A model generated the notes under the pieces. It was not told the DNA's origin. It saw nothing but the letters and a program-made list of their open reading frames with translations, and ran no database searches. A stretch of DNA of 64,000 nt, from IMG/VR virus record IMGVR_UViG_3300032163_000008, positions 1 through 64,000 of that record; one strand, 5' to 3'. Below are positions 1,306 to 15,472 of the stretch, piece by piece. Every line of letters begins with the position of its first letter. Position 1 is the first letter of the stretch. This DNA comes from a virus. The position numbers were made by a program, and so were the translations under genes.

Positions 1306-1478
1306 TGATACAACACGTAATGATGATAGATGGGATAGATGTGGTCTTTTCTGACAAGGAGTTGTATGATCAAGTCCTGGATTGGATACACGAAGCCAAG
1401 CAAGATCCGGGTTTTGTAGTAACAGGGGCCTGGATCAAGGAGATAGTGCAAACTATACAGGAGGAAGACAATGCATAA
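1305..1478 (+). CDS. hypothetical small acidic protein, 57 aa
   Basis: Starts at the ATG overlapping the previous stop (TAATG) and ends eight bases inside the next gene. The product runs from MIQHVMMIDGIDVVFSDKEL to an acidic tail ending EEDNA. The short beta-rich start followed by helices suggests a small folded domain. Not recognised. Confidence 0.55.
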   Translation: MIQHVMMIDGIDVVFSDKELYDQVLDWIHEAKQDPGFVVTGAWIKEIVQTIQEEDNA

Positions 1479-1803
1479 GCCGCTAAAAATGTATGACATA
1501 GCAGGTGAGGAAGAAAACGTGGCAATTCTGAGTAAGGACAAGCAGACGGTTATCTTCACAGATAATGAAGCTGTGCACACCATACATGGCATAGATGACC
1601 CCGTGCTAGGGGATGGTACGACAACCCGACAGATACTCCTGACTAAGTCCGTAAAAGTCAAGGACCTGGGGCAATGGGTGCGCACATTTGGAGCACGCAT
1701 CGAGAACAATTATGCCATGTTGCTACATAGCATCAAGGAGTTGGGGCTAGACCCGGAGGACTACCCACGTTTCAAGCACTGTTACGAGAAAGTACTGTTA
1801 TGA
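1471..1803 (+). CDS. hypothetical early phage protein, 110 aa
   Basis: Excellent ribosome site (AGGAGG, 7 bases before ATG 1471). Soluble alpha/beta protein with no membrane segment. The C-terminal part (LGLDPEDYPRFKHCYEKVLL) is probably helical. Overlaps its downstream neighbour by ATGA. No family recognised; operon context suggests an early host-takeover or nucleic-acid accessory protein, which is inference only. Confidence 0.65.
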   Translation: MHKPLKMYDIAGEEENVAILSKDKQTVIFTDNEAVHTIHGIDDPVLGDGTTTRQILLTKSVKVKDLGQWVRTFGARIENNYAMLLHSIKELGLDPEDYPRFKHCYEKVLL

Positions 1804-1982
1804 AAAAGTATAGAATCATAAACAATCGTTGGGGAACCCTGACACCACAAGTACAGAGGTTTGGTTTCTGGTTTGACATATTTGTGCCAGAAGCACCACT
1901 TAGTGGTATGGGAACGCGTGGTATGTGCGAGTTTGCAATTCTCGCGCATAAGAACAAAGGAAAGGTAGTGAAGTATGGCTAA
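1800..1982 (+). CDS. hypothetical small basic protein, 60 aa
   Basis: ATG 1800 overlaps the previous stop (ATGA) and the end overlaps the next start. Basic, aromatic-rich product (FGFWFDIFVPEAPL) with no recognised domain. Tight coupling on both sides supports it as a real gene despite its size. Confidence 0.55.
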   Translation: MKKYRIINNRWGTLTPQVQRFGFWFDIFVPEAPLSGMGTRGMCEFAILAHKNKGKVVKYG

Positions 1983-2301
1983 GCCACCAAAGAGTAAAGT
2001 AGTAGAGGTTAAGAAGACGGCAGACCTGGGGCATAAAGTAACGAAGAAGCCTCCCCAGGAAAAGGAAGCACACAAGCAGATGAAGAAGCAGACACACCTG
2101 CTCAAGCGCTTCGACGCAAATAAGAGCAGCTTGAAGGAGCTGGCGACTCTAATCAAGAGGGGCGTAGTTAGCATAGAAGATACGGTTAGGCTCAGCGAGC
2201 AGCGCAAGGCAGAGCGTCTCATCAAGCGCAAGGAAAAAGAGTACCAGAAGCGCCTGCATACATCAGCAGCACACAAGCAACTCATGGAGGTAACGTCATA
2301 A
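1975..2301 (+). CDS. lysine-rich helical protein, 108 aa
   Basis: Very basic product, beginning MAKPPKSKVVEVKK with later runs such as RKAERLIKRKEKEYQKR. Predicted to be mostly alpha-helical or coiled coil after residue 40. The charge suggests nucleic-acid binding, which is inference. It abuts the next ATG (TAATGA). No named family. Confidence 0.6.
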   Translation: MAKPPKSKVVEVKKTADLGHKVTKKPPQEKEAHKQMKKQTHLLKRFDANKSSLKELATLIKRGVVSIEDTVRLSEQRKAERLIKRKEKEYQKRLHTSAAHKQLMEVTS

Positions 2302-2663
2302 TGACACACGCACAGGCACAGGCATTGTTTGCTATGCACAGGGAATTGAAGACTGAGGTGGAAACACTCAGACAGAGGAGTGGAGTGAAGCGCAGAGAAA
2401 TAGAGCAGCGCTTCGAAGCACTGGAAGAGGCTTTAGAAGAAATCGGAGACCAGCACCTAGAAGAGGATATGCTAAACCTAGAGGTTATAGCAAACCTAGC
2501 CGAGGAGAACGACAAATTAAGAGGGGACTTGAAAAGCAGCCAGGAGCATGTCAAAATGCTACAAAACGACAACTACCAGGACCTACTACGTACTACGGAA
2601 ATAGAGTATCAGAGGGGCACAAGAGTTTGCACCTCTAATAGAGGTTATATTACCCCTTTTTAG
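2301..2663 (+). CDS. acidic coiled-coil protein, 120 aa
   Basis: Strong heptad pattern from about residue 10 to 95 (RFEALEEALEEIGDQHLEED). It is the acidic counterpart of the basic coiled coil just upstream, so the two could interact. The last ~15 codons lie inside the operon's terminator-like hairpin (2611-2661), an unusual overlap of coding and termination signals. Ribosome site GGAGG at about -16 is a little far. Confidence 0.6.
   Translation: MTHAQAQALFAMHRELKTEVETLRQRSGVKRREIEQRFEALEEALEEIGDQHLEEDMLNLEVIANLAEENDKLRGDLKSSQEHVKMLQNDNYQDLLRTTEIEYQRGTRVCTSNRGYITPF
2611..2661 (+). terminator. nested hairpin and T-run at end of first operon
   Basis: An inner hairpin pairs 2631-2636 with 2640-2645 (ACCTCT/AGAGGT). 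An outer stem pairs AGAGGGG at 2611 with the CCCCTTTT around 2654. A run of Ts follows. It overlaps the 3' end of the preceding gene. Confidence 0.5.
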
Positions 2664-2692
2664 ACTACACCCGTTACACGAGTATAACGATG

Positions 2693-2726
2693 TAATTATC
2701 GATAATTAGACGTCAGATGACGTCTC
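2693..2726. repeat. two adjacent perfect palindromes
   Basis: TAATTATCGATAATTA (2693-2708) is a perfect 16-base palindrome. It is followed at once by GACGTC AGAT GACGTC, a second dyad symmetric about its centre. Tandem dyads in a gene-free stretch suggest protein-binding operators or a replication-associated site. No partner protein is evident. Confidence 0.5.
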
Positions 2727-2814
2727 TGATGTAAGATATCAATTATACGTTTCAAATCGCTATAACAGTTGAATTCACTACGATTAGATGATTATATCGA
2801 TGCTATGAAATAGG

Positions 2815-3050
2815 TGTTGGGGATAACCTGGGGGAAACCCAGGGGGCTTCGGCTCGAGAGTCCCCCGGGGTACCCCAGAACCCCGGATCCGCGCAGAATG
2901 CGGGGTGGGGGAGGGGGATGTCGGGAGGGATGATACGCATCTTCCGCGCTATCAGCGGGTTTGCTGTGCCGCCTCAGATATTCTCACATCGCCTGGCACC
3001 TCTTTAGGTGCTGGCAGAGGGTCCACGGGGCCGGGCAGAGCCGGGTATAG
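2815..3050 (+). ncRNA. GC-rich structured region, candidate non-coding RNA
   Basis: About 235 bases far richer in G and C than their surroundings and with no plausible ORF. Visible pairings include CCTGGG/CCCAGG, GGGGG/CCCCC across a loop with CTTCGG, CTGGGG/CCCCAG closing both, GCACCT-CTTT-AGGTGC, and CCGC/GCGG. The nested arrangement argues for a folded RNA rather than chance. No promoter is obvious. A promoter of the early family starts just downstream (3065), so this RNA would be transcribed from further upstream. The strand is assumed. Confidence 0.4.
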
Positions 3051-3064
3051 TGCGACAAATTGAT

Positions 3065-3100
3065 TTTTTGTAATGAATTGAAATTATTTCATATAGATAT
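3065..3100 (+). promoter_or_regulatory. early-family promoter, copy 1
   Basis: Matches the recurrent pattern TTTTGTAATGAATnGAAATT then CATATAGAT. It lies about 30 bases before the ribosome site of the 3130 gene. The same pattern recurs upstream of at least nine other operons here, which is the basis for calling it a promoter. Confidence 0.55.
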
Positions 3101-3129
3101 CTTTATCATATTTGAGGAGGAAATAAATT

Positions 3130-3624
3130 ATGGCAACAGTAGAAGTGAACGTATCAGACATCAGTTTTGACAGGCATGAGTACATGGATGTCCTTGACAA
3201 CCTTGACGGTGAGAAGGTTCTGGAGTGGGTGCAGGACAATTTCAGCACCGAAGACATCTGTGAGGGCCTAGACACCTATAAGGTGCTAGAGGCCCTGAGC
3301 CTTGATACCAAGGACGTGCTAGATGCGCTTGAAGGCGCTAATGGCAGGCGAGACGAGATCAAGGCATGGATCGGTGAAGAGCTTGAGGTTGATACAGTTA
3401 ACCGCTTAATGGCGGGGTCTGCGCGACAAGCTGTCATAGCCCATGTGTTGAGCAAGGTAACACTGCTCGAGATCGGTCTGGCGCTAGTAGCGATGGCCAC
3501 TCCACCAGTGCCAGCAGTTGAGCAGGTGGAGCCCACTAAGCAGCATGCTGCGTTAGGGGCGGTAGCTGATGACCTGGTGACTATCCTCGATAATGCTGAG
3601 GAAGAGGTCCTAGTGTTGCGTTGA
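3130..3624 (+). CDS. acidic hypothetical protein, 164 aa
   Basis: Starts at ATG 3130 behind GAGGAGG. Acidic, helical, with many Asp/Glu-Val/Leu repeats (DTYKVLEALSLDTKDVLDAL) and an Ala/Val-rich C-terminal half. No membrane segment clear enough to call. It stands alone behind its own early-type promoter. Function not recognised. Confidence 0.7.
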   Translation: MATVEVNVSDISFDRHEYMDVLDNLDGEKVLEWVQDNFSTEDICEGLDTYKVLEALSLDTKDVLDALEGANGRRDEIKAWIGEELEVDTVNRLMAGSARQAVIAHVLSKVTLLEIGLALVAMATPPVPAVEQVEPTKQHAALGAVADDLVTILDNAEEEVLVLR

Positions 3625-3730
3625 TGTTGCCTCTTAAGTATCACTCCAGGTATGACATAGGTATAGACATGACAATAACAGCGCAAGCGCAAAGATGAAG
3701 AGGCAGCTACCCTTTGTGACAAATTGAAGA

Positions 3731-3761
3731 TTTGTAATGTATTTTTTGAGTTCTAATAGAA
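3731..3761 (+). promoter_or_regulatory. early-family promoter, diverged copy
   Basis: TTTGTAATGTATTTTTTGAG followed by TCTAATAGA keeps the TAATGnAT core and a TAATAGA end at the family spacing. It sits about 20 bases upstream of a perfect Shine-Dalgarno and a small membrane gene. Confidence 0.4.
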
Positions 3762-3788
3762 CTACTCATCAAACGCAAGGAGGTAATT

Positions 3789-3890
3789 ATGGATTGGCGA
3801 CTATTATTTTATATTATAGGCTTTCTCCCGTTAACCATTGTAGTGATTATGGCTTGTATGCCGGAGAATGATGGCAGCGTAGATCTTTAG
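3789..3890 (+). CDS. tiny membrane peptide, 33 aa
   Basis: ATG 3789 follows AAGGAGGT at ideal spacing. The product MDWRLLFYIIGFLPLTIVVI continues to a short acidic tail, so it is a single transmembrane helix with an acidic end. Such peptides are common early phage products acting at the host membrane; the specific role is unknown. Confidence 0.6.
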   Translation: MDWRLLFYIIGFLPLTIVVIMACMPENDGSVDL

Positions 3891-3899
3891 GAATACACG

Positions 3900-4280
3900 T
3901 CAAACATAAGTGGGGGCAACGATGAATAAGGAAATCGTAGTAGTGGCAGCTTTGGTTGTCTTCCCCATCTTTGATATGGGAAGCTTCACTACCTCCTTCA
4001 CTCCCTTGGAGTAGAGATAGGTGATTATAGCACCACGGAGCTCCACGATAATAGCGTTCTGTTTGCTAACCCAGAAGTCCTCTATTAGAACCGCACTGAT
4101 GTGAGAGGGTAGTAGAGGTATGAGCTTCCCGTATAGCTCGAACACTCTCTGGTATGGGTCTCTTCCGGAAGTCCTAATGGTGTACTTCTCGTGGGTTTGT
4201 GTCTGAGGATCCCAAATGAATATTCCTGTGCTGTTTGTACCCAAATCAAGACAAACAATTTTTTGGGGCAATAAAGACAT
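3900..4280 (-). pseudogene. RuvC-like Holliday junction resolvase, 3'-truncated
   Basis: 126 residues. CLDLGTNSTGIF near the start matches the RuvC/RNase H-fold first catalytic Asp (xDxGxxxTG). VLIEDFWVSKQN about 55 residues later matches the second (IEExFxxKN), followed by a RuvC-like helix (ELRGAIITYLYSKG) and a KMGK loop. RuvC proteins then need a further helix with H/D-x-x-D catalytic residues; here the frame instead runs into unrelated sequence (ATTTISLFIVAPTYV) and stops. So it retains two of four acidic residues and is likely inactive, or a very short divergent nuclease. It has its own GACAATTAAGAT-ATG start signal. Confidence 0.6.
3922..4014 (+). CDS. possible truncated membrane peptide, 30 aa
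   Basis: ATG 3922 is preceded by GTGGGGG, and the first 16 residues (MNKEIVVVAALVVFPI) resemble a membrane or signal segment. After about base 3965 the frame is antisense to the RuvC-like gene on the other strand. The ORF may be the 5' remnant of a gene cut by the same event that truncated that gene. Low confidence as a functional gene. Confidence 0.25.
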   Translation: MNKEIVVVAALVVFPIFDMGSFTTSFTPLE

Positions 4281-4292
4281 ATCTTAATTGTC
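4278..4292 (-). promoter_or_regulatory. GACAATTA-N4-ATG start element
   Basis: On the minus strand GACAATTAAGATATG spans the start codon of the RuvC-like gene. The identical 15-mer occurs at 12405 and at 35644, each time with the ATG in the same place and no Shine-Dalgarno. It looks like a variant of the TATAATTA late element. Confidence 0.5.
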
Positions 4293-4344
4293 GCTCCCAA
4301 AGCAACAGAAAGTACTGAAATACACAAGAAATAGTATATGATAG

Positions 4345-4620
4345 ACAATAACAGCGTTGCAACGCTGCTTGTAGTTGGCAGACTTCACTGCCCTCTGGTC
4401 CTCTACTGCCAAACTAGTAGATTGAACTTGCGCCAAGGCCGGCAAGAGGGGTTCATCCATTCCCCTGATAAAATTGGGCCCGCTCTGGGACACTGAGACG
4501 TCGTCGGTCCGCTTCGTAATAGACCGTGTTTTTGCTCTAACACCGGGGGTGACCCCAACTACTGAGTGTTTGCATGGTCCCACTGACTCCTAGGCTAGGT
4601 GGGACCGAATAAACTTTTTG
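4345..4620. other. structured gene-free stretch
   Basis: No convincing ORF. It contains a perfect palindrome (CAGCGTTG/CAACGCTG), a TTGGCAG/CTGCCAA stem, a CGGTC/GACCG stem and a strong GGTCCCAC...GTGGGACC hairpin near 4575-4605 followed by an AT-rich stretch. It may be a separate RNA or the 5' part of the structured region downstream. Strand undetermined. Confidence 0.35.
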
Positions 4621-4623
4621 TCT

Positions 4624-4631
4624 GATAATTA
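4624..4631 (+). promoter_or_regulatory. GATAATTA late-type promoter variant
   Basis: GATAATTA differs by one base from the TATAATTA octamer found before many late genes. It lies a few bases before the start of a terminator/antiterminator-like RNA (4638 onward), so it is a plausible promoter for that RNA. Confidence 0.35.
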
Positions 4632-5140
4632 AACCGTCAAGGTGGTACGGGCCGTTCTTCGGATATAAGTGCAAGTTTGCAAGCTGAGACAAAGATACGC
4701 GGAGTAGTGCGGTTTGCTTATCAAGAGTTTGTTTTTTCTAGCCACCTTGAGTGGCTTTTCCGGTTTGCTGGGACAGAATCTGTCAAAGTACCAAAAGGTT
4801 ATAGTTATAGTAGTAGATGTTATGGATTAGCAGCCTTTTCATAAAAGTGCGGCTACTGCCTGGGTAGATATGCCCTGGCCGTCCCCCGTGAAAGCACGCC
4901 TAAAGTCAGGACGTTAAGAAGGTGATGGAGGCAAGGTCATGCCGGAGAGATCCGACAACGATCGTTACCGATCGTTGGACTCGTTGAAAAAGTACGAGAC
5001 CGAAAGGTTCTGTGACCCCTTACTGAGTTTGGATCCCGCATAATCAGCGGGTCAGGCATCAGCGAGCGGGTCATACTATATGCATTACCCATGTCATCTA
5101 TTGCATCCATGACATGGGTTGCCTAGAGACCTAGTGCCGC
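4632..5140 (+). ncRNA. large multi-hairpin non-coding RNA candidate
   Basis: About 500 bases without an ORF and densely hairpinned. Hairpins seen: GACAG-AAT-CTGTC, AGCAGCC...GGCTACT enclosing TTTT/AAAA, GGCA/TGCC, CAACGATCG-TTAC-CGATCGTTG (9 bp), CTCGT/ACGAG, ACC-GAAA-GGT, CCCGC/GCGGG, and an 11-bp stem ACCCATGTCAT/ATGACATGGGT ending near 5121. Size and density resemble the large phage RNA classes such as ROOL or GOLLD, but I recognise no diagnostic sequence. A 3' poly-T is absent after the last hairpin. Confidence 0.45.
4638..4760 (+). promoter_or_regulatory. terminator/antiterminator switch
   Basis: GCCAC-CTTGA-GTGGC-TTTT (4741-4759) is an intrinsic-terminator hairpin. Its left arm and loop (CCACCTTG, 4742-4749) are also exactly complementary to CAAGGTGG at 4638-4645, about 100 bases upstream. 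The two pairings exclude each other, the layout of an attenuator or riboswitch. The 100 bases between could be a sensor domain; no known riboswitch core was recognised. Confidence 0.45.
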
Positions 5141-5149
5141 ATGTGCATC

Positions 5150-5192
5150 CAACCATATTTTGTAATGAATAGAAATTTTTTAATATAGTAAT
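5150..5192 (+). promoter_or_regulatory. early-family promoter, copy 3
   Basis: TCCAACCAtattt-TGTAATGAAT-AGAAATTTTTTA-ATATAGTA: the full form of the family, including the upstream TCCAACCA box seen in half of the copies. Drives the 5253 gene. Confidence 0.6.
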
Positions 5193-5252
5193 ACTCATAC
5201 GTCACAAACAAACAAAAATAAGTTTGTGACCACTTTGGAGGAGGTGAGACGA

Positions 5253-5654
5253 GTGCAAAAAGAAAAGGAGTCTATTATGGACAAAACAATTGAGCTAGTA
5301 CAAGAGAACGGTAAAGAAGTTTGCTATGCAAAGGTAACATCGGGTAAGCGCGAGGGCGCGATCATCCGTGTGTACTACATCCGAGCCAATGACGGAGTTG
5401 TCGTGGGCAAGGACATCCAGACTAAGAAGGTCATAGCTGTGGGCAAGGGTTCGATGAGTGAAGAGTTCAGAGCCCACTACAACTTGACAACTGGCCGTAA
5501 GGGTCAAAGCTACGACAGCATCCTTGCTGAGCTCGGCAAGGCAGTTGAAGCTGTGCAAGAGGAAGTACCTGAGGTTGTAGCTGAGCCAGAAATGGCTATG
5601 GCAGAAGCAAGCGTCGTCGCTCCTAAGAAAGCTACGCCACGCAAGCGTAAGTAA
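5253..5654 (+). CDS. paralogue of the array-associated small proteins, 133 aa
   Basis: Start chosen at GTG 5253 behind GGAGGAGGTGA; ATG 5277 (behind AAGGAG) is an alternative and aligns better with the paralogues. Residues ~10-85 align with the products at 9849 and 11684: ENGK-x(3)-Y, G-x(3)-G, R-x-YYIR-x(2)-DG-x(2)-G-x(2)-IQ, then a conserved S-x-EF and a SY-D-x-I helix. This copy adds an acidic Val/Ala/Glu linker and a basic tail (PKKATPRKRK). The compact beta-rich core plus basic tail suggests nucleic-acid binding. Not recognised as a named family. Confidence 0.7.
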   Translation: MQKEKESIMDKTIELVQENGKEVCYAKVTSGKREGAIIRVYYIRANDGVVVGKDIQTKKVIAVGKGSMSEEFRAHYNLTTGRKGQSYDSILAELGKAVEAVQEEVPEVVAEPEMAMAEASVVAPKKATPRKRK

Positions 5655-5663
5655 TTTATTTCC

Positions 5664-5694
5664 GCTAGGGTGTATGCCTCCACGTCACCCTAGC
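5664..5694 (+). terminator. hairpin terminator
   Basis: GCTAGGGTG (5664-5672) pairs with CACCCTAGC (5686-5694), 9 bp, just after the stop of the 5253 gene. No T-run follows; the right arm is part of a duplicated segment. Confidence 0.45.
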
Positions 5695-5748
5695 ATCCCC
5701 AATACGTCCAACCAAGTCACCCCTAGCATCCCCAATACGTCCAACCAA
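5688..5748 (+). repeat. 28-bp direct repeat, two copies
   Basis: Copies at 5688-5715 and 5721-5748 are identical, starting CCCTAGCATCCCC and ending CCAACCAA, five bases apart. The repeat duplicates the terminator's right arm together with the TCCAACCA box that belongs to the following early promoter. Confidence 0.75.
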
Positions 5749-5785
5749 ATTTTATAATGAATGTAAATTATTTTATATAGTATTA
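5741..5785 (+). promoter_or_regulatory. early-family promoter, copy 4
   Basis: CCAACCAAATTTTATAATGAAT then GTAAATTATTTTATATAGTA. One of the best matches to the shared pattern; upstream of the 5837-6473 operon. Confidence 0.6.
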
Positions 5786-5836
5786 CCTATATAATAAGTA
5801 AATTATTATTATTGATCCTTGGAGGAGGTGATACAA

Positions 5837-5980
5837 GTGTCAGACAAGAAGCATGACATGACAGACATGTGCGGGTGGATGTATGCAGCAGGGTTCGAGC
5901 CATGCAACTTCGGTTGTGACGGCTGTCCGATCTATGATGCAATTGAGGAAGCGAAAGAGGCAGTGGAGACAGAAGAATAA
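5837..5980 (+). CDS. small four-cysteine protein, 47 aa
   Basis: GTG start at 5837 behind GGAGGAGGTGA. Contains a C-x(10)-C-x3-C-x2-C pattern (CGWMYAAGFEPCNFGCDGCP), likely a metal-binding knuckle, then an acidic helical tail. No named family. First gene of a two-gene operon; the next gene follows after 19 bases. Confidence 0.6.
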   Translation: MSDKKHDMTDMCGWMYAAGFEPCNFGCDGCPIYDAIEEAKEAVETEE

Positions 5981-5999
5981 AACGGTGGGAGGCACCAAG

Positions 6000-6473
6000 A
6001 TGACAAATAAGTATAGCATGCTCAACGAGCAAGGCCAGTATGTGGAAGTGACTAAAGAGGTGTTTGAAGCGGACACCAAGGCAAGGGAAGATAAGTTTGC
6101 TGCAGCGCTGGCGATCACACAACCTGATCCCGATAGTTTGCATAGAGCAGTTACCATGAGCAATCACAAGATCGAGGTATGGGCGCTACCATTCCACTTC
6201 GATGAGCCGTTCAAGGTAGGGTATGCGTACAGCATGCTGGACTGCATGAAGATGATAGTTAGGTTCGAGCAAGAGGCCTACGACTGCGAAGTGACCCTAG
6301 AAGAGTTATTCTTCTTCAAGCCTAGCAGTGTGGTAGAATACTACGGCAATATCGAGATAGCACTGAATGAGGAAGTGGTTAGCTTCATTGAGCGCGTCTC
6401 TGATAGGATCGTAGCAGCGATCAGTGTTGACTGGGATGAAACTGACACCTATGTAATGGTCAAGGAAGCCTAG
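6000..6473 (+). CDS. hypothetical early protein, 157 aa
   Basis: I place the start at ATG 6000, behind GGGAGG, because sequence before it in this frame is antisense-like and overlaps the Cys4 gene. Acidic alpha/beta protein (for example VWALPFHFDEPFKVGYAYS), no membrane segment. Followed by a near-perfect 13-bp terminator hairpin. Not recognised. Confidence 0.7.
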   Translation: MTNKYSMLNEQGQYVEVTKEVFEADTKAREDKFAAALAITQPDPDSLHRAVTMSNHKIEVWALPFHFDEPFKVGYAYSMLDCMKMIVRFEQEAYDCEVTLEELFFFKPSSVVEYYGNIEIALNEEVVSFIERVSDRIVAAISVDWDETDTYVMVKEA

Positions 6474-6480
6474 TCATGTG

Positions 6481-6510
6481 GGACGCGGATGCCAGGCATC
6501 CGCGTCCATC
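6481..6510 (+). terminator. strong hairpin terminator
   Basis: GGACGCGGATGCC (6481-6493) and GGCATCCGCGTCC (6495-6507) are exact complements, followed by ATCTATTT. Confidence 0.7.
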
Positions 6511-6511
6511 T

Positions 6512-6553
6512 ATTTGAAATTTTTAATGAATGTAAATTATTTTATATAGTATT
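6512..6553 (+). promoter_or_regulatory. early-family promoter, copy 5
   Basis: ATTTGAAATTTTTAATGAAT then GTAAATTATTTTATATAGTA. This subclass has ATTTGAAATTT in place of the TCCAACCA box and shares it with the copies at 7521 and 8508. Confidence 0.6.
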
Positions 6554-6587
6554 GTCATATATAATATAAAATTATATAAATTGAGTC

Positions 6588-6649
6588 ATGGAGGTGACAA
6601 TAATGGATCGGTATTTAAATGGAGGTGACAATAATGGATCGGTATTTAA
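6588..6649 (+). repeat. 31-bp tandem duplication of a ribosome site and start codon
   Basis: 6588-6618 and 6619-6649 are identical. Each unit holds ATGGAGGTGAC, a spacer and ATGGATCGG. The duplication creates two small overlapping leader ORFs (19 and ~32 codons) ahead of the 6662 gene; the first ends in the TGATG that starts that gene, so translation may be coupled. Confidence 0.8.
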
Positions 6650-6661
6650 AAGGTGGAGATG

Positions 6662-6925
6662 ATGAACCTGAATGCGTACGATCAAGTCGAACTTGTGTCG
6701 TACGATCCAGAGATGTTCGTAGGGGTGGATGAGTACAGAGATTCGATCATAGAGATTCAGCCAGAAGGACATGCACACAAGTATGACTTCAATGAGTGGA
6801 TCAGCGATCGCGAGGGTGAGATTGCTCACTGGGAAAGCATGGAAGGTAACACCGAAGAGGATGAGTCCTTTATCAAGATGCTTAAGGGAGACCTTGAGAC
6901 GATGCTAGCTATGAAACAATTCTAA
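6662..6925 (+). CDS. acidic hypothetical protein, 87 aa
   Basis: Start at ATG 6662 behind AGGTGG; ATG 6659 is equally possible. Very acidic (for example EGNTEEDESF), as are the other products of this region. Early phage genomes often encode such DNA-mimic-like or inhibitor proteins; no specific similarity is seen. Followed by a coupled gene at 6939. Confidence 0.65.
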   Translation: MNLNAYDQVELVSYDPEMFVGVDEYRDSIIEIQPEGHAHKYDFNEWISDREGEIAHWESMEGNTEEDESFIKMLKGDLETMLAMKQF

Positions 6926-6938
6926 GGAGATGAATACT

Positions 6939-7130
6939 ATGAGAAGTTTGCAAGAGCTACAGAAGGTGCCGTTTGCTAAGATGACGACAGAGGAAGAGTG
7001 TTTGTTTGTTCCTCCCGTCACGTCCAGGTTTGCACAGACCATGAATGAAGTTTGTAACAATGAAGTTTGTCATGAGGAAGATCACGAGGCCTACATGCAG
7101 TTTCTAAGTTTGGAGATGAGCCAGCTATGA
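6939..7130 (+). CDS. hypothetical protein, 63 aa, TTTGY-rich coding sequence
   Basis: ATG 6939 lies 9 bases after AAGGAG; ATG 6930 overlaps the ribosome site and is less likely. Product MRSLQELQKVPFAKM continues to an acidic end. The coding strand carries about eight copies of TTTGC or TTTGT in under 200 bases, the same word that makes up the arrays at 9.6 and 11.4 kb. Overlaps the next start by ATGA. Confidence 0.6.
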   Translation: MRSLQELQKVPFAKMTTEEECLFVPPVTSRFAQTMNEVCNNEVCHEEDHEAYMQFLSLEMSQL

Positions 7131-7411
7131 AGAGTTATATCATAATGAGCCAGTACCATGACTATGGGAACATCGAGACCTTCCTGAGGAGAGGGTCCTT
7201 TGCAACTGAGAAGGATCTTTTCAGAGACGTGTTCAAAGCTTCCCTGGATCAAGAGGATGAGCAGGGAAACATTATTGGAGAAGTGTTCAATAGGCTAGAG
7301 GGTGAGGAGCTCATGGATTACATCTATGAGACGCTCGTCGATCCAGACCATGAGTTTACGTTAACAGTCTTTGAAGAGGAAAGCTTGGAGCTTGTCCTAG
7401 AAAAGAACTAA
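7127..7411 (+). CDS. acidic hypothetical protein, 94 aa
   Basis: ATG 7127 is coupled to the previous stop. Acidic mixed alpha/beta protein (MKSYIIMSQYHDYGNIETFL), ending in a Glu-rich strand-helix. No recognised motif. Last gene before a 15-bp terminator stem. Confidence 0.65.
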   Translation: MKSYIIMSQYHDYGNIETFLRRGSFATEKDLFRDVFKASLDQEDEQGNIIGEVFNRLEGEELMDYIYETLVDPDHEFTLTVFEEESLELVLEKN

Positions 7412-7415
7412 TTCC

Positions 7416-7466
7416 TTTGACATGACAGAGACAGAGACCTCCACCTCTGTCATGTCAAATCTCTTT
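7416..7466 (+). terminator. 15-bp hairpin terminator
   Basis: TTTGACATGACAGAG (7416-7430) pairs exactly with CTCTGTCATGTCAAA (7445-7459), followed by TCTCTTT. Just downstream the 12-mer GTGAGTCCAACT occurs twice (about 7474 and 7496). Confidence 0.7.
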
Positions 7467-7520
7467 ACCACTGTGAGTCCAACTTCCTATACATGTGAGT
7501 CCAACTGTGAGAGATCACAT

Positions 7521-7595
7521 ATTTGAAATTTATAATGAATATATATTTTTTTATATAGATGAGTCATATAATAATTTTTTATTATAAATTGACTC
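7521..7595 (+). promoter_or_regulatory. early-family promoter plus 5' leader hairpin
   Basis: Promoter ATTTGAAATTTATAATGAAT then TATATAGAT (7521-7560). The leader begins with GAGTCA-TATAATAA, loops through T5, and returns as TTATTAT-TGACTC, ending just before the GAGGAGG ribosome site of the 7616 gene. A similar GTCA...TGACTC leader follows the 8508 promoter. Confidence 0.55.
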
Positions 7596-7615
7596 ACTGA
7601 GGAGGTGACAAGACG

Positions 7616-7822
7616 ATGGACAAGATACAAGCAGCAATTGACAGCAACGAGGATCTGCGCGAGGTTATGGCGTTTGTGCCAGTCAGCGACGCGGAGAGCT
7701 TCAACGACTGGGATCAAGCAGAAGGTTACGGTGTGTGTTTGCCACTGGTAACGGGTATAGTATGTGAGAAGGCTTTGGAGGAAGCTTACAAGGATCTAGT
7801 GCAGAGGTTTGAGAAGAGATAA
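7616..7822 (+). CDS. acidic hypothetical protein, 68 aa
   Basis: ATG 7616 behind GAGGAGGTGA. Short acidic protein (MDKIQAAIDSNEDLREVMAF) with two helices and a central beta segment, no recognised domain. First gene of a two-gene operon with 7846. Confidence 0.65.
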   Translation: MDKIQAAIDSNEDLREVMAFVPVSDAESFNDWDQAEGYGVCLPLVTGIVCEKALEEAYKDLVQRFEKR

Positions 7823-7845
7823 AATAAAAGTGGGAGGCACTTAAT

Positions 7846-8439
7846 ATGAGACTAGACGACAGGTTCGTAATCAATGTCAATGCAGAGGATAGAGAAGTTT
7901 ATTGTGAGGATAGTGATAATTCAATGTCCAAGGGTGAGTATGTGGGGTATTGTGAAGATACATCAGGTCAGATGATAGGAGACGTCATCATCAGGTTCAA
8001 CGGTACTGAAGAGGGTTTGTATGACGTGGTAAGTCAGTATTGTGGTGATGAGGATCTGGAAACGGTTAAAGAGTTTGTTAGGGGGAAAGAGTTTGTGGAA
8101 GTGTCAGAGTTCAATGACTACGCCATATTAAGGATGTCAGTGAAGCTCCGAGATGCTTGGGAGCGGATAAGGGAAATAGAGACTAAGTGGGAAGCAGATC
8201 TGAGGATAGTGACCGAGAGGCACAACAAGGGTCTTACAGAGGAACAGAAGCTGAGGTTCTGGGCATATGTGTCTGACTTCTGCTTCAGTGGCAGATATGG
8301 TATAGGGAGTTACTACAGTGACTACGTCATGCTTAATACAAGTGACGGTCACGTGTGTGATGATGAGGATTGGTACTATGGGTACGAGGCTGATGTACTG
8401 AAGGTACTAGAGGATGCGGGCATAGAAGTAGTCAGCTAA
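7846..8439 (+). CDS. acidic hypothetical protein, 197 aa
   Basis: ATG 7846 behind GGGAGG. Strongly acidic with a helical centre (ELRDAWERIREIETKWEADL-like region around residues 100-125) and aromatic, Asp-rich C-terminus (DEDWYYGYEADVLKVLEDAG). No membrane or catalytic motif recognised. Ends before a hairpin terminator. Confidence 0.7.
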   Translation: MRLDDRFVINVNAEDREVYCEDSDNSMSKGEYVGYCEDTSGQMIGDVIIRFNGTEEGLYDVVSQYCGDEDLETVKEFVRGKEFVEVSEFNDYAILRMSVKLRDAWERIREIETKWEADLRIVTERHNKGLTEEQKLRFWAYVSDFCFSGRYGIGSYYSDYVMLNTSDGHVCDDEDWYYGYEADVLKVLEDAGIEVVS

Positions 8440-8449
8440 TACTGAAGGG

Positions 8450-8478
8450 TCCTTCTCTGGGTATGAGACAGAGAAGGG
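8450..8478 (+). terminator. hairpin terminator
   Basis: CCTTCTCTG (8451-8459) pairs with CAGAGAAGG (8469-8477), 9 bp, after the stop of the 7846 gene. Confidence 0.5.
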
Positions 8479-8505
8479 TCCGGGGGATGAACTTTAAGCG
8501 ACCAC

Positions 8506-8590
8506 ATATTTGAAATTTATAATGAATGTAAATTATTTTATATAGTAGGGTCATATATATTAAAAATATATAAATTGACTCATGTGGAGG
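8506..8590 (+). promoter_or_regulatory. early-family promoter plus leader hairpin
   Basis: ATTTGAAATTTATAATGAAT then GTAAATTATTTTATATAGTA (8507-8547), followed by GGGTCA-TATATATT...AATATATA-TGACTC, a leader hairpin like that after 7521, then GGAGGTGAG for the 8598 gene. Confidence 0.6.
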
Positions 8591-8597
8591 TGAGACT

Positions 8598-8786
8598 ATG
8601 TACGACGATCAAGATTATGATGACGCGTTCGAAGAGAATCCAGAGTTCGCAGAAAGATACTATGCAGCACGGAATGCAGAACCGACACATCCATGTCCCC
8701 AGTGCGGAACTGAAAATGTGTTGAATGATGATGACGTCAGACGGGGTTACCGTTGTGATGCCTGTGCCGATGAGGCTGAGAGATAG
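8598..8786 (+). CDS. small zinc-ribbon protein, 62 aa
   Basis: ATG 8598 behind GGAGGTGAG. The acidic N-terminal half (MYDDQDYDDAFEENPEFAER) is followed by a C-terminal CPQC...CDAC pair with ~18 residues between, a zinc-ribbon knuckle expected to bind one zinc ion. Such proteins often contact nucleic acid or RNA polymerase; no specific family recognised. Confidence 0.7.
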   Translation: MYDDQDYDDAFEENPEFAERYYAARNAEPTHPCPQCGTENVLNDDDVRRGYRCDACADEAER

Positions 8787-8845
8787 AACCTAAGGGTCCA
8801 GGGCCCGGGTCGAAACAAAAGTTTGTTAAAGGAGTGGAGGCACCT

Positions 8846-9178
8846 ATGAAGGATATAAAGTTTGTTAAGGCAGTGCAGTTTAAGGTTCACGTCTATGGTC
8901 AAAGCGAGGATGTGATCTTACATGTGACTGAGGATGATCCGATCGCTACGACTAATTACTGTGAGCCCAATGATGAGGGTGGTTACAACAGTGAGGAAGA
9001 TGAGTATGAGTGGGATAAGAATGACACGATCACTCACAGGTCAGAGACTGAGGGCAAGGACTGTGATGGCGTTACTAGGCATACGTACAGTCAAGACTAT
9101 ACGATCAGTACAGGCACGTGGGGTAAGATCTATCACGAGCGCTGCTATGATCAATATGCTGAGGCCGCAGGCTACTAA
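8846..9178 (+). CDS. acidic hypothetical protein, 110 aa
   Basis: ATG 8846 behind GTGGAGG (the earlier in-frame GTG overlaps the ribosome site). Beta-rich, acidic and Thr/Tyr-rich (for example DTITHRSETEGKDCDGVTRH), perhaps a small beta domain. Not recognised. Ends shortly before a terminator-like stem. Confidence 0.65.
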   Translation: MKDIKFVKAVQFKVHVYGQSEDVILHVTEDDPIATTNYCEPNDEGGYNSEEDEYEWDKNDTITHRSETEGKDCDGVTRHTYSQDYTISTGTWGKIYHERCYDQYAEAAGY

Positions 9179-9188
9179 AGCGTCTTAA

Positions 9189-9232: not shown

Positions 9233-9345
9233 CAACCATAAATTTTATTGTATTTATTTTTTATTAAATAGATGGACCCTTTGAGTATTCCCAAAGCATC
9301 CACCCATGAAAATTAATGAACAGATTTTATTTTAAATAGTAGTGT
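9232..9345 (+). promoter_or_regulatory. two early-family promoters in tandem
   Basis: First copy: CCAACCATAAATTTTATTGTAT then TTAAATAGAT (about 9233-9272). Second copy: CCACCCATGAAAATTAATGAAC then TTAAATAGTA (9300-9343). They read into the TTTGY array with no gene in between. Confidence 0.5.
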
Positions 9346-9421
9346 CTCGAAGGGTCCTGGGACCACAAGTTTGCTGAGTCCGCATCCCTGTTATTTTCGA
9401 TTTTAATAAGTTTGTTTAGAA

Positions 9422-9595
9422 GTTTGTATGATCTTATTAAAAAGTTTTTCTAATCGATTTTTGCAAGAAGAAACGTTTGTTTTAGTTGAAGTTTGTTTAA
9501 CTATGTTTGTTTGTATGATCTTATTAAAAAGTTTTTCTAATCGATTTTTGCAAGAAGAAACGTTTGTTTTAGTTGAAGTTTGTTTAACTATGTTT
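9422..9595 (+). repeat. 87-bp tandem duplication
   Basis: 9422-9508 and 9509-9595 are identical by eye, starting GTTTGTATGATC. Each unit itself contains several TTTGT/TTTGC words. Because 87 is a multiple of three, an in-frame ORF spans it (9428-9811), but its translation (repeated Phe/Leu/Val with FVRVVC-like stretches) is not protein-like and I do not call it. Confidence 0.8.
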
Positions 9596-9811
9596 GTTTG
9601 TTTTTATTTATTAATAAGTTTATTAATGAGGTTTGTCAGAGTCGTTTGTCACTCGTGTTTGTTGGTCAAGTTTGCTGGGGACGTTTGTCTGGGTGAGTTT
9701 GCTAGAGGAGTTTGCTCTGTAGGTTTGTCGCAGGAGTTTGCTGCATTAAGTTTTGTTGGACACAGTTTGCCCAGGGAGTTTGCTAGAGGAGTTTGTCAAG
9801 CGGTTTGTTAA
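9596..9811 (+). repeat. TTTGT/TTTGC array, copy A
   Basis: About 14 TTTGY words, nearly always preceded by G, occur every 12-17 bases on the + strand with variable G/A-rich spacers such as AGAGGA or GGTGAG. The array lies between two early promoters and a strong terminator, so it is probably transcribed without being translated. The terminator loop repeats the same word. Confidence 0.7.
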
Positions 9812-9814
9812 AGG

Positions 9815-9850
9815 ATGCGAGCGGGTTTGTGGCCCGCTCGCATTTTGTTT
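9815..9850. terminator. strong terminator between array A and the convergent gene
   Basis: ATGCGAGCGGG (9815-9825) pairs with CCCGCTCGCAT (9833-9843), loop TTTGTGG, followed by TTTTGTTT. It sits at the 3' ends of both the array and the convergent minus-strand gene and may serve both. Confidence 0.8.
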
Positions 9851-10130
9851 ATTCTTCGGTTTGGAACTTGTCCATTATCGCGGAATAGTCCTTACTTGCA
9901 CGCGCACTTGCTGGCTTGGCTCCAACTGCTTCCAGGAACTCTGGACTGAAGTTAGACCTGCCGATGTACTTGACTCCAGCGATCTTCTTACCGTTCTGGA
10001 TTACTGATCCGCCGATGATGCCATCTTTACGGATGAAGTAGAACCTGAATAGCTCGCCTTTATAAGTGCCACCCACTGGACGCGTGTAGTAAGCGTCCTT
10101 TCCATTTTCGGACTGCTTTACTACTGACAT
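9849..10130 (-). CDS. array-associated small protein A, 93 aa
   Basis: Start at the ATG complementary to 10128-10130, behind GGAGG; an earlier in-frame ATG contains the ribosome site. About 75% identical by eye to the product at 11684 (SENGKDAYYTRP, LFRFYFIRKDGIIGGSVIQ, VKYIGRSNFS) and more distantly related to the 5253 product. Compact beta-rich core then a Lys/Ser tail. Convergent with the TTTGY array, as in the second cassette. The association suggests it binds or is regulated by the array; that is inference. Confidence 0.75.
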   Translation of the reverse strand: MSVVKQSENGKDAYYTRPVGGTYKGELFRFYFIRKDGIIGGSVIQNGKKIAGVKYIGRSNFSPEFLEAVGAKPASARASKDYSAIMDKFQTEE

Positions 10131-10336
10131 ATTATGCCTCCACATATATTTATTATAATTTATTTATTTTAATAAATATTAATTTAAATTTATTATATTA
10201 TTAAATTATTAAAATAATATAATATTAATATTTATATATATAGCTAGTGTCAAAAATTTATATACATTAAAAAATATCGATATATACGAAATATTTAATG
10301 TATATAAATATTATTATATAGGGACCAGGTTCGAGA
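10131..10336. promoter_or_regulatory. divergent early-type promoters in AT-rich spacer
   Basis: About 200 bases of almost pure A/T. On the minus strand ATTTTTTAATGTATATAAAT lies near 10285-10255 and would drive the 9849 gene through a long A/T hairpin leader ending in GGAGG. On the plus strand ATATTTAATGTATATAAATA then TATATAGGG (10291-10322) faces the other way. The two cores form an imperfect inverted repeat. Confidence 0.45.
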
Positions 10337-10382
10337 ATCCAACCATAAAATCTAATGAACATAAATTTAATTAAATAGCAGG
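10337..10382 (+). promoter_or_regulatory. early-family promoter with TCCAACCA box
   Basis: TCCAACCATAAAATCTAATG followed by AACATAAATTTAATTAAATAGCA. Lies 20 bases upstream of the GC-rich hairpin module at 10400. Confidence 0.5.
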
Positions 10383-10399
10383 GTCCCGCCTGGATCGGA

Positions 10400-10434
10400 G
10401 CCCGGGACGAAGTCCGGGGTGGTCGAAGACTCCT
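10400..10434 (+). promoter_or_regulatory. conserved GC-rich hairpin module, copy 1
   Basis: GCCCGGGACGAAGTCCGGGG then TGGTC (10400-10424) is identical to 12261-12285. The first part folds as CCCGG(G)AC-GAA-GTCCGGG. A second short stem GTC-GAA-GAC follows, matching stems GTCAC-GTA-GTGAC and GTCGC-GTA-GCGAC in the other cassette. Likely an RNA element in the leader of the 10517 operon. Confidence 0.55.
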
Positions 10435-10440
10435 AGAATT

Positions 10441-10483
10441 AATTTAAAATATTTAATGTATTAAAATTTAGAATTATAGTACT
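10441..10483 (+). promoter_or_regulatory. early-family promoter, diverged copy
   Basis: AAAATATTTAATGTATTAAAATTTAGAATTATAGTA keeps the TAATGTAT core and TATAGTA end (broken here only for naming; 10446-10481). Directly upstream of the 10517 operon. Confidence 0.45.
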
Positions 10484-10516
10484 ACACATAACTACACATT
10501 AACGGGAGGAACCAAA

Positions 10517-10669
10517 ATGAGTAGAGAGCACTTAGAAGAGCAGTACAAGATCAAGTTAAGGATTCTCGAACAACTGAGGGTATTCGTGAATGCAGAGGAT
10601 GATCTAGTAAAGTTGGCACGGATCGAACAAGAAATCAATTCGTACATAGGGGGGAAGCACAATGGATGA
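10517..10669 (+). CDS. small helical protein, 50 aa
   Basis: ATG 10517 behind GGGAGG. Charged amphipathic helices (MSREHLEEQYKIKLRILEQL), perhaps a coiled-coil dimer. Overlaps the next gene by eight bases. Not recognised. Confidence 0.55.
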   Translation: MSREHLEEQYKIKLRILEQLRVFVNAEDDLVKLARIEQEINSYIGGKHNG

Positions 10670-10817
10670 TGATGTAATAAAGATCGTAGAAGAAGCTCAC
10701 AGGGAGTGGGAGCAGTTCAGTAAGGAATATGATCGCAACATAAAACCTAACATTACGGTACCATTCGTAATGGATTTCGGTACAATAGCGATCGAGTTAG
10801 AGTATTCGAGGAGTTAA
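10662..10817 (+). CDS. small acidic protein, 51 aa
   Basis: ATG 10662 behind GGGGGG at good spacing, inside the end of the previous gene. The product starts MDDDVIKIVEEAHREWEQFS and finishes with a beta-like stretch. No recognised motif. Confidence 0.55.
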   Translation: MDDDVIKIVEEAHREWEQFSKEYDRNIKPNITVPFVMDFGTIAIELEYSRS

Positions 10818-10892
10818 GTAAGGAAAAGATAGAGTATAGTAGTAGGCATACAACCGTATTAGGAATAACAAAGTACTAATACGTCACCTCAT

Positions 10893-10943
10893 GATCGGTA
10901 GGAGGTTCCCTCCCTCCCCATTCCTCCTACCGATCTTCTTTCT
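10893..10943 (+). terminator. 13-bp hairpin terminator
   Basis: GATCGGTAGGAGG (10893-10905) pairs exactly with CCTCCTACCGATC (10923-10935), then TTCTTTCTTT. Confidence 0.75.
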
Positions 10944-10960
10944 TTCCTTACATAGTATTA

Positions 10961-10968
10961 TATAATTA
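10961..10968 (+). promoter_or_regulatory. TATAATTA element
   Basis: TATAATTA followed immediately by CGGAGG and ATG 10983; same layout as late genes further right (octamer, then ribosome site with almost no leader). Confidence 0.45.
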
Positions 10969-10982
10969 CGGAGGCGATACAA

Positions 10983-11144
10983 ATGAAAGATTACTTTAAG
11001 TGGCTGTTCGAGGATGCGATACCAAAGATGATGATCTTCTTGGGTAACACGCTCGTGTATATCATCAAATTAATATTCGCGTTCGCGATCGGGTGGATGA
11101 TAGGAGCTGTTCTCTTTGGAGGTAACCATGATCAAGAGAATTGA
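10983..11144 (+). CDS. small membrane protein, 53 aa
   Basis: ATG 10983 behind CGGAGG. An amphipathic N-terminus (MKDYFKWLFEDAIPKM) is followed by one or two hydrophobic helices (MIFLGNTLVYIIKLIFAFAI, then GWMIGAVLFGG). It could be a holin-like or other membrane-acting peptide. Overlaps the next gene by 17 bases. Confidence 0.55.
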   Translation: MKDYFKWLFEDAIPKMMIFLGNTLVYIIKLIFAFAIGWMIGAVLFGGNHDQEN

Positions 11145-11301
11145 GTCGGCTGTCGAGAACTACTTGCGAGCGAAAAGAGAGAATCCTAACTTCAAGCAGT
11201 ATCGTCCTAGCGTTCAACTCACTGCAAAGGACAAAGCTCAGAAGAGGAACAACGCAAAACAGATCTTCCGCAAAGAATTAGAGGAAGAATGGCACGCTTA
11301 A
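11128..11301 (+). CDS. small basic protein, 57 aa
   Basis: ATG 11128 behind GGAGG located in the previous gene. Highly charged and basic helical product (MIKRIESAVENYLRAKRENP), probably soluble. It is the last gene before TTTGY array B, which would form its 3' untranslated region. Confidence 0.55.
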   Translation: MIKRIESAVENYLRAKRENPNFKQYRPSVQLTAKDKAQKRNNAKQIFRKELEEEWHA

Positions 11302-11326
11302 CCGGGAATTTTCCCCTGGATGAAGT

Positions 11327-11648
11327 TTGTTTGCTATAGTTGATAGTACAGATCGAAGTTTGCTATCAAAATCGTTTCTAGGTGATGGGTTTTGTCAGGT
11401 GTTTGCCTGAGATTTTGTTTCTCTGGGATTTTGCTATGAAATTTGTCATAGGAGTTTGTTGATCACTTTTGTCAGACTGTTTTGTCAGGTGAGTTTGTTA
11501 GATTATTTTGTCAGGTCAGTTTGTTGGACTATTTTGCTTATCGGGTTTGTTCGGGTGGTTTGTAAAACTCTTTTGCCACTGAGGTTTGTGGGATCAGTTT
11601 GTCCAGAGAGTTTGCTTGGGGGTTTGCTAGAGGAGTTTGTTAAAAAAC
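11327..11648 (+). repeat. TTTGT/TTTGC array, copy B
   Basis: About two dozen TTTGY words by eye over 320 bases, mostly 12-17 bases apart, for instance the near-repeats TTTTGTCAGGTGAG, TTTTGTCAGGTCAG and TTTGCTAGAGGAG. All are on the + strand. It continues from the 11128 operon to a terminator whose loop again reads TTTGTTAGA. The unit TTTGCTAGAGGAGTTTGT is shared with array A. Confidence 0.75.
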
Positions 11649-11649
11649 T

Positions 11650-11686
11650 GGGGACAAGTTTGTTAGACTTGTCCCCTTTGTTTTTA
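11650..11686. terminator. strong terminator between array B and the convergent gene
   Basis: GGGGACAAG (11650-11658) pairs with CTTGTCCCC (11668-11676), then TTTGTTTTT. Same position and loop word as the array A terminator. Confidence 0.8.
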
Positions 11687-11980
11687 TTCTATTTCTTCAG
11701 CAGGTTTCTCGAACTTGCTTAAGATATCGTCGTAAGACTTTGTACTACGTGCAGTTGCTGGCTTGGCTCCGACAGCTTTTAGAAATTCTTCAGAGAAGTT
11801 CGATCTTCCGATGTACTTGACTCCTGGTAACTTCTTACCATCTTGTATAACCGACCCACCGATAATCCCATCCTTGCGGATGAAGTAGAATCTGAATAGA
11901 TCACCTTTATACGTACCACCCTCTGGCCGCGTGTAGTACGCGTCCTTTCCGTTCTCGGACTGCGTTACTACTTCACTCAT
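11684..11980 (-). CDS. array-associated small protein B, 98 aa
   Basis: Start at ATG complementary to 11978-11980 behind GGAGG. Close paralogue of the 9849 product; the two align over their whole length except the last ten residues (KPAEEIE here). Conserved SENGKDAYY, GGTYKG, FIRKDGIIGG and SNFS-EF-AVGAKPA motifs. Codons differ enough that this is an old duplication under selection rather than a recent copy. Function unknown. Confidence 0.75.
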   Translation of the reverse strand: MSEVVTQSENGKDAYYTRPEGGTYKGDLFRFYFIRKDGIIGGSVIQDGKKLPGVKYIGRSNFSEEFLKAVGAKPATARSTKSYDDILSKFEKPAEEIE

Positions 11981-12190
11981 GTTATGCCTCCACATATTTA
12001 TTATAATTTACTTATTATTAAATATTTAATTTAGATTTATTATATAATTAAATTATTAAAATTATATAATATTAAATATTTATAAATATATCTAGGAAGT
12101 GACAAATCAATACATTACAAAATATGAGTCAATTAACTTGAGACATATTGATTATTTATAATGTATTGATATTATTATAAATAGAGAGTC
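11981..12190. promoter_or_regulatory. divergent early-type promoters, copy B
   Basis: AT-rich spacer homologous to 10131-10336. Minus strand TTTTGTAATGTATTGATTTG (about 12125-12105) with TAGATA further on points to the 11684 gene; plus strand TTTATAATGTATTGATATTA then ATAAATAGAG (12150-12187) points right. ATCAATACATTA and TAATGTATTGAT form a perfect 12-bp inverted repeat around them. Confidence 0.5.
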
Positions 12191-12404
12191 CACCCATAGA
12201 GTCCAATGTATAGAATTGAAATCATATAGGGGATTCATATACCCCAAAAAGTGGTTACGTGCCCGGGACGAAGTCCGGGGTGGTCACGTAGTGACTAAGG
12301 TCAACGGGTAATCACATATACCCCAAAAAATGGGTATATGTCGGGTCGAAGGAAAAAAGTAGCGATGGCGTACCGGGTGGTCGCGTAGCGACTCCTGGAT
12401 CGGT
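12190..12404 (+). ncRNA. structured leader or small RNA with repeated hairpin module
   Basis: Starts with a promoter-like TCCACCCATAGAGTCCAATG. It then contains the 25-base module identical to 10400 (12261-12285), the stem GTCAC-GTA-GTGAC, CATATACCC/GGGTATATG around a CAAAAAAT loop, and a second CCGGGTGGTC followed by GTCGC-GTA-GCGAC (12376-12392). The paired stems differ by compensating changes, good evidence for RNA structure. No ORF of note. Confidence 0.5.
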
Positions 12405-12452
12405 GACAATTAAGATATGAACACAAAGAAAGGAAAGGTGGTGATGGTATAG
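12405..12452 (+). promoter_or_regulatory. GACAATTA-N4-ATG element with 11-codon ORF
   Basis: GACAATTAAGATATGAAC is identical to the start region of the 35656 gene. Here the ATG (12417) opens only 11 codons (MNTKKGKVVMV). It may be a leader peptide ahead of the radical SAM operon or the relic of a gene start. Confidence 0.35.
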
Positions 12453-15471: not shown

Positions 15472-15472
15472 T

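Follow-up and report, generated by a model that had tools for sequence, protein, structure and literature searches.

Why should a bacteriophage repeat one short word in a single orientation along its early genes, and carry two dense arrays of that word beside two copies of a small gene? The question is raised by the window analysed here, the first 64 kb (64,000 nucleotides) of the 79,204-base IMG/VR virus record IMGVR_UViG_3300032163_000008, in which TTTGT and TTTGC words (TTTGY) form two plus-strand arrays, each facing a gene of one small-protein family (paralogs 1 and 2), and single GTTTGY words are scattered through the preceding 9 kb. Our preferred reading, to which we assign a probability of roughly 0.4, is that GTTTGY is an RNA recognition word bound by the paralogs and that the arrays are multi-site RNAs. 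The broader claim, that the word does have a function and that in some way it is the plus strand that is read, we regard as highly probable. The scattered words, a third paralog and a shared early-promoter-like motif go beyond the first-pass annotation of the two array regions; feature coordinates are collected in Table 1.

That annotation had described two plus-strand runs of TTTGT/TTTGC, and both were borne out by register counts and shuffling. Array 1 comprises 29 TTTGY starts between 9370 and 9844, 14 of them in near-perfect register (starts 9632-9804, with steps of 13, 13, 13, 13, 14, 13, 13, 13, 15, 14, 13, 13 and 12 nt), while array 2 comprises 25 starts between 11326 and 11677, with 20 in register (starts 11391-11636) at steps of mostly exactly 13 nt. 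The longest chains of TTTGY at 12-14 nt steps contain 9 words in array 1 and 17 in array 2; a chain never exceeded 2 in 200 dinucleotide shuffles of the window, nor 3 (array 1) and 4 (array 2) in 2000 shuffles per array. The irregular early words of array 1 represent one duplicated unit, since Tandem Repeats Finder reports an 87-bp block in 2.3 copies with 95% matches over this leading part, and a residual 26-bp duplication is present in array 2. Protein-coding repeats were ruled out, as 13 is not a multiple of 3 and a ribosome-binding site is lacking.

Repeats of this kind could be a functionless, decaying minisatellite set in a locally biased composition: 13-bp TTTGY minisatellites were seen in unrelated contigs, and the residual 26-bp and 87-bp duplications are of the sort that such an origin would leave. 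Alignment of the two arrays argues otherwise. Of the 56 positions of the TTTG cores, 54 (96%) are identical, and the pyrimidine is kept in 14 of 14, whereas the spacers match at only 60 of 117 positions (51%). Between the genes of paralogs 1 and 2, synonymous divergence is near saturation (dS 1.23) and the ratio of nonsynonymous to synonymous divergence (dN/dS) is 0.12, and the two cassette copies are, to judge from their sequences, old. Because the cores were kept while the spacers drifted at near-saturated dS, the alignment indicates that the TTTGY words are under purifying selection. The 13-nt register alone is weaker evidence of constraint than the words, since small insertions and deletions are less frequent than substitutions and tandem duplication is how the arrays grew.

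The same word, extended by one base, marks the region that precedes the arrays. On the plus strand of positions 1-9355, GTTTGY occurs 32 times, all within 163-8861, against 5.1 expected under a second-order Markov model (about sixfold), whereas the minus strand carries 5 against 4.3 expected. No hexamer of this plus-strand stretch is more enriched than GTTTGC and GTTTGT, and none of the other NTTTGN hexamers or of the one-letter neighbours of GTTTGC is clearly over expectation. The sites occur both outside coding sequence and within it, there in each of the three codon phases; the 20 counted in the codon test outnumber those in all 1000 synonymous-codon shuffles (mean 7.9 when shuffled per gene, 4.9 when pooled). 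The words stop at the arrays, with zero plus-strand GTTTGY in 10131-11320, 11981-12632 and 12632-16255. While the isolated words are strictly GTTTGY, 10 of the 38 array units read TTTTGY, a tolerance that fits cooperative binding, because weak sites can be tolerated among strong neighbours. Neither composition nor codon use accounts for the scattered hexamer, and taken with the preserved cores this makes a functionless minisatellite barely credible.

The arrangement of signals around the arrays bears on whether they are transcribed. A position weight matrix (PWM) scan identified a motif, AATGwA-N14-wAwAG in AT-rich flanks, in 12 plus-strand copies located from 3064 to 12197; a thirteenth plus-strand copy, at 9239, is weaker, as are two minus-strand copies that face the two paralogs. 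It is confined to the stretch 3064-12238, with no convincing copy elsewhere in the 79-kb record, and its pattern found no match when searched in IMG/VR; we treat it as a putative phage-specific early promoter. Two copies precede array 1, and downstream of them (9239 and 9307) there is no open reading frame (ORF) with the GGAGG-type signal of the other early genes; for this reason, the simplest view of array 1 is that of an RNA, roughly 510 nt long, that is not translated. The transcript of the small genes at 10517-11301 would have array 2 as its 3' end, and a U-tailed hairpin near 10892-10945, inside this small-gene stretch, may reduce read-through into the array. Given the promoter-motif copies before array 1 and the terminators after both arrays, the two arrays appear transcribable on the plus strand, and we infer that they are transcribed.

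The first-pass annotation had given both regions the same five-part layout. All of its parts are indeed present in both, including the divergent AT-rich promoter regions, the identical 25-base GC-rich module and the convergent genes, whose proteins are 80% identical. The copies are nevertheless not symmetric, in that array 1 has two promoter-motif copies of its own and no gene, whereas array 2 closes a small-gene operon. The loops of the two strong terminators, said to read TTTGT, do carry it at the apex, although by folding energy it is partly pairable through G-U wobble.

An RNA-read word is expected in unpaired stretches of the sense transcript; accessibility, defined as the unpaired probability predicted by RNA folding, was therefore used to separate RNA from DNA. 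In the sense RNA, the 32 scattered words, a small sample, have a mean unpaired probability of 0.42. The same words placed at random give 0.31 (p=0.001), and native hexamers of matching composition give 0.26 when taken locally (p=0.0003) and 0.32 when taken from 13-63 kb (p=0.004). For the antisense strand, accessibility of the scattered words showed no significant difference (p=0.14). The whole arrays also lie above spacer-shuffled controls (0 of 40 and 2 of 40 controls as high), and, once the terminators and the duplicated block are taken out, array 2 remains above them (0 of 60 as high). Taken as folding predictions, these results favour RNA over DNA. The earlier proposal that the functional form is RNA thus finds backing in predicted transcribability, selection on the word and unpaired preference, and least in the in-register part of array 1, to which we return below.

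The same evidence bears on whether the arrays are double-stranded DNA iterons bound by the paralogs at a replication origin, partition or packaging site. Direct repeats adjoining a small-protein gene, with AT-rich stretches past the gene, would suit such a site. At a 13-bp spacing, however, neighbouring sites would not share a face of the double helix, and single words in one orientation extend over 9 kb, so that the sites are not confined to the arrays. With the preference for unpaired RNA and the lack of any DNA-binding Pfam match in the proteins added, we consider iterons quite improbable.

A different DNA-level explanation, for which the phage's affinities matter, would make GTTTGY a Chi-like word of a host RecBCD/AddAB-type enzyme, the one-orientation decoration and the arrays taming a nuclease that enters from the right. 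The capsid protein (33816-35204) is 38% identical to the capsid of SPO1-like Bacillus phages and about 42% identical, over its full length, to its top IMG/VR match; on the strength of these identities the phage is placed broadly within the SPO1/Herelleviridae-type group, distant from SPO1 itself. Many small genes run from base 1 to about 12.6 kb, in the same layout as the early host-takeover region of SPO1, and the position of the decorated region within the 79,204-base record resembles that of the SPO1 terminal region. A sharp hexamer on one strand, in all frames and in coding and non-coding sequence alike, agrees with a Chi word, as does the position of the arrays, which border the decorated region on its inner side and would be the first words met from the right.

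Two phages of this group, K and SPO1, have the Chi of their host gathered in the terminal repeat or region. In phage K (NC_005880), the Staphylococcus aureus Chi, GAAGCGG, occurs 13 times on the plus and 7 times on the minus strand of the 8.5-kb terminal repeat and zero times in the 131 kb between the repeats; this looks like Chi protection of genome ends, and a limited literature search found no publication stating the confinement. In SPO1 (NC_011421), the density of the Bacillus subtilis Chi, AGCGG, in the 13-kb terminal region is about four times that of the remaining genome, on both strands, with some copies within terminator stems. These Chi words are documented (PMC5959072, PMC11442139), and Chi clusters have been published for lambdoid phages (PMC3784561). 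The likeness to our phage lies in a short word that fills an early or terminal region in any frame. The differences are that both strands carry the word in K and SPO1, against the single enriched strand here, that neither has such arrays, and that known Chi words are G-rich, which GTTTGY is not. As a negative control, the terminal-region Chi sites of K (p=0.99) and of SPO1 (p=0.93) were not predicted to prefer unpaired RNA, in contrast to the words of this phage. A Chi word would also leave unexplained the promoter-motif pair before array 1, the adjoining paralogs and the TTTTGY units within the arrays. On balance we judge it rather unlikely, while still a serious contender.

If the word is read in RNA, the paralogs are its likely binders, a view that we infer from their three-fold co-location with the word, their co-duplication with the arrays and their purifying selection. 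The decorated 12 kb holds the genes of all three, and paralogs 1 and 2 likely start at inner ATG codons behind GGAGG rather than at the ORF starts. The leader of paralog 1 consists almost entirely of A and U and is 88% identical to the copy upstream of 11980, compared with 75% for the coding sequence. For paralogs 1 and 2, Pfam gave no match of any kind, helix-turn-helix, ribbon-helix-helix and other DNA-binding domains included, and PHROG at most a marginal one; paralog 3 matches DUF4988 and PRA-PH below threshold in Pfam, to which we give no weight. Searches of GenBank phages, IMG/VR and GTDB genomes with the paralogs singly and with the three-member alignment returned no homolog. Two AlphaFold models (mean predicted local distance difference test scores of 52 and 56) suggest, at low confidence, a beta-rich domain followed by a C-terminal helix, and the PURA-repeat and Spt5 KOW/SH3-barrel fragments matched by Foldseek were not significant and were not used. 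A suspected link between the paralogs and a WYL_2-like gene at 15662 was dropped at an hhalign probability of 0.1.

In the mechanism that we propose, GTTTGY would be read single-stranded from the plus strand of the early region, RNA (as GUUUGY) being the most likely form. Single words would sit in early messages, and a GUUUGY-reading protein family, of which paralogs 1-3 are the likely members, would coat or mark these messages. The two array units at 13-nt spacing, one a stand-alone untranslated RNA (array 1) and the other an operon 3' end (array 2), could hold many protein copies at once and cooperatively, thereby setting the level of free protein that acts on singly tagged early messages, as a buffer or sponge, or could instead serve as sites of nucleation. 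The first-pass annotation had suggested a sponge RNA/protein system; this idea survives in part, having missed that the same word runs across about 9 kb of early transcripts. Further still, the phage may tag its own early messages with GUUUGY for a new type of phage protein family, the arrays being cooperative reservoirs or assembly platforms, an extension that we hold to be doubtful.

Several observations weigh against binding of an RNA word by the paralogs. The coding sequences of the paralogs themselves and the plus-strand genes at 10.5-11.3 kb contain no GTTTGY, and three plus-strand GTTTGY words are antisense to a possible minus-strand gene at 3900-4280 (its product lacks a Pfam match, and its DLGTNSTG start is, we presume, reminiscent of RuvC-like resolvases). 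No homolog, domain or confident fold ties the paralogs to RNA binding. The in-register part of array 1 taken alone lies only weakly above its control (6 of 60 as high), and the accessibility argument as a whole draws on folding predictions at few sites. Finally, the apex TTTGT could be just the sole free sequence in the terminator.

The arrays might also be RNA decoys not for the paralogs but for a host factor, such as an RNA-binding or RNA-cutting defence protein. Such decoys would have the same anatomy as the multi-site RNAs proposed above, and the early location suits host takeover; phages counter RNA-based defences by RNA mimics or RNA-binding proteins (PMC10853763, which refers to Blower 2012). 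A host target would leave unexplained, however, both the co-duplication of the paralog genes with the arrays and the scattering of the word over the phage's own early messages, and we consider it improbable.

Table 1. Position, strand and supporting evidence of the features described in the window.
Feature	Position	Strand	Basis
Scattered single GTTTGY words (32)	162..8866	+ only	Markov expectation, NTTTGN comparison, codon shuffles, accessibility
Array 1, probable untranslated RNA	9370..9848	+	13-nt register over 9632-9808; ORFs lack a ribosome-binding site
87-bp block, 2.3 copies, irregular TTTGY spacing	9422..9621	+	Tandem Repeats Finder
Array 2, putative 3' end of 10517-11301 operon	11326..11684	+	20 in-register TTTGY units at 11391-11640
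Predicted array 1 terminator, TTTGT at apex and in U-tail	9812..9848	+	Predicted fold
Predicted array 2 terminator, TTTGT at apex and in U-tail	11650..11684	+	Predicted fold
Paralog 1, 93 aa, convergent with array 1	9849..10130	-	dN/dS 0.12 against paralog 2
Paralog 2, 98 aa, convergent with array 2	11684..11980	-	80% identity to paralog 1
Paralog 3, 125 aa, 34% identity	5277..5654	+	Sequence comparison
Paralog 3 leader hairpin, GTTTGT buried in stem	5202..5228	+	Predicted fold
Conserved, almost AU-only 5' leader of paralog 1	10131..10245	-	88% identity between copies, above gene
Early-promoter-like motif copy 1 upstream of array 1, weaker	9239..9280	+	PWM 31.4
Early-promoter-like motif copy 2, directly upstream of array 1	9307..9348	+	PWM 36.0
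Early-promoter-like motif for paralog 1	10235..10276	-	PWM 23.4
Early-promoter-like motif, divergent from paralog 1	10289..10330	+	Motif scan
Second plus-strand early-promoter-like motif	10346..10387	+	Motif scan
Early-promoter-like motif for paralog 2, weak	12083..12124	-	PWM 13.5
Two early-promoter-like motifs divergent from paralog 2	12152..12238 (starts 12152, 12197)	+	Motif scan
25-base GC-rich hairpin module, copy 1	10400..10424	+	Identical to 12261-12285; hairpin fold
25-base GC-rich hairpin module, copy 2	12261..12285	+	Identical to 10400-10424; hairpin fold

The GC-rich hairpin module also has a third, diverged relative (GGTGGTCGCGTAGCGACTCC) at 12325-12405, ahead of a radical SAM gene.

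Among the known systems closest to the one proposed are CsrB/CsrC and RsmX/Y/Z with their partners CsrA/RsmA, in which a non-coding RNA with many short single-strand motifs sequesters a small protein that also acts on single mRNA sites; CsrB and CsrC offer 18 and 11 sites for CsrA (PMC7366521). By its sequence, array 1 (and not array 2) likewise has a promoter-like motif and a terminator of its own and lacks coding capacity. The motif in those RNAs is GGA, mostly in hairpin loops, whereas here TTTGY stands in a regular 13-nt register on a phage genome, and the partner belongs there to the CsrA family, which the paralogs do not, having no recognised relative. TRAP-type RNA leaders, in which regularly spaced short triplets are wound round a ring, share the regular spacing of a short single-strand motif and differ in motif and spacing and in that the array is not the leader of a regulated operon. 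Type III toxin-antitoxin systems and the phage mimics of their antitoxins are alike in having a promoter, a tandem-repeat RNA, a terminator and an adjacent protein gene. Their repeats, however, are 36-50 nt long (PMC10853763) and the gene is a co-directional endoribonuclease, against 13-nt units and a convergent gene with no Pfam match here. In Rfam, no match reached the gathering score, and those below it were at chance level.

The search for relatives of the system covered both homology and array architecture. An IMG/VR search with the early gene at 7846 and the radical SAM gene at 12632 gave no match, a capsid scan of bacterial genomes for a host or relative gave none either, and the collections searched, from which records very near this one were excluded, yielded no relative with homologous early genes. 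When IMG/VR was scanned, independently of homology, for runs of four TTTGY spaced 13 nt apart, 65 stretches were returned, the strongest of which, on inspection, were simple minisatellites or the unrelated contig IMGVR_UViG_3300030328_003898. At 420-4350, this contig carries six intergenic T-rich TTTTTGTYY arrays at mostly 13-nt steps, similar in look and unrelated in sequence, and the minus-strand genes that flank them have TATA boxes of archaeal look. None of 27 capsid relatives carries as many as three TTTGY spaced 13 nt apart, and in eleven of these scanned whole for short-period arrays there was no TTTGY array. One capsid relative (G013) has, at 157.2-161.0 kb, three arrays of 15, 8 and 12 units between small genes near one end, with the 10-nt unit YTAG with GGGGG, which hints that short-period arrays with other words recur in such regions; it also carries more than 30 copies of AGCATTTAC, perhaps promoters. 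Another, 147.5-kb relative (G003) has dozens of TGGCAC-N5-TTGC-like sites, resembling sigma-54 promoters, in both orientations at about 4-16 kb, which is unusual for a phage region.

Whether GTTTGY is read as RNA or as a Chi word, clear and cheap predictions follow from the word itself, from its register and from its orientation. Should it be a Chi word, the Chi of the host would have been named from its phage alone, and the comparison with phage K and SPO1 suggests that such inference of host Chi would be general in this phage group. If, as we prefer, the word is read in RNA, this locus would provide a new RNA-binding protein family, an unusually legible code and a natural multi-site RNA; and if the phage does tag its own early messages, it would represent a viral-RNA self-tagging system in a bacterium.

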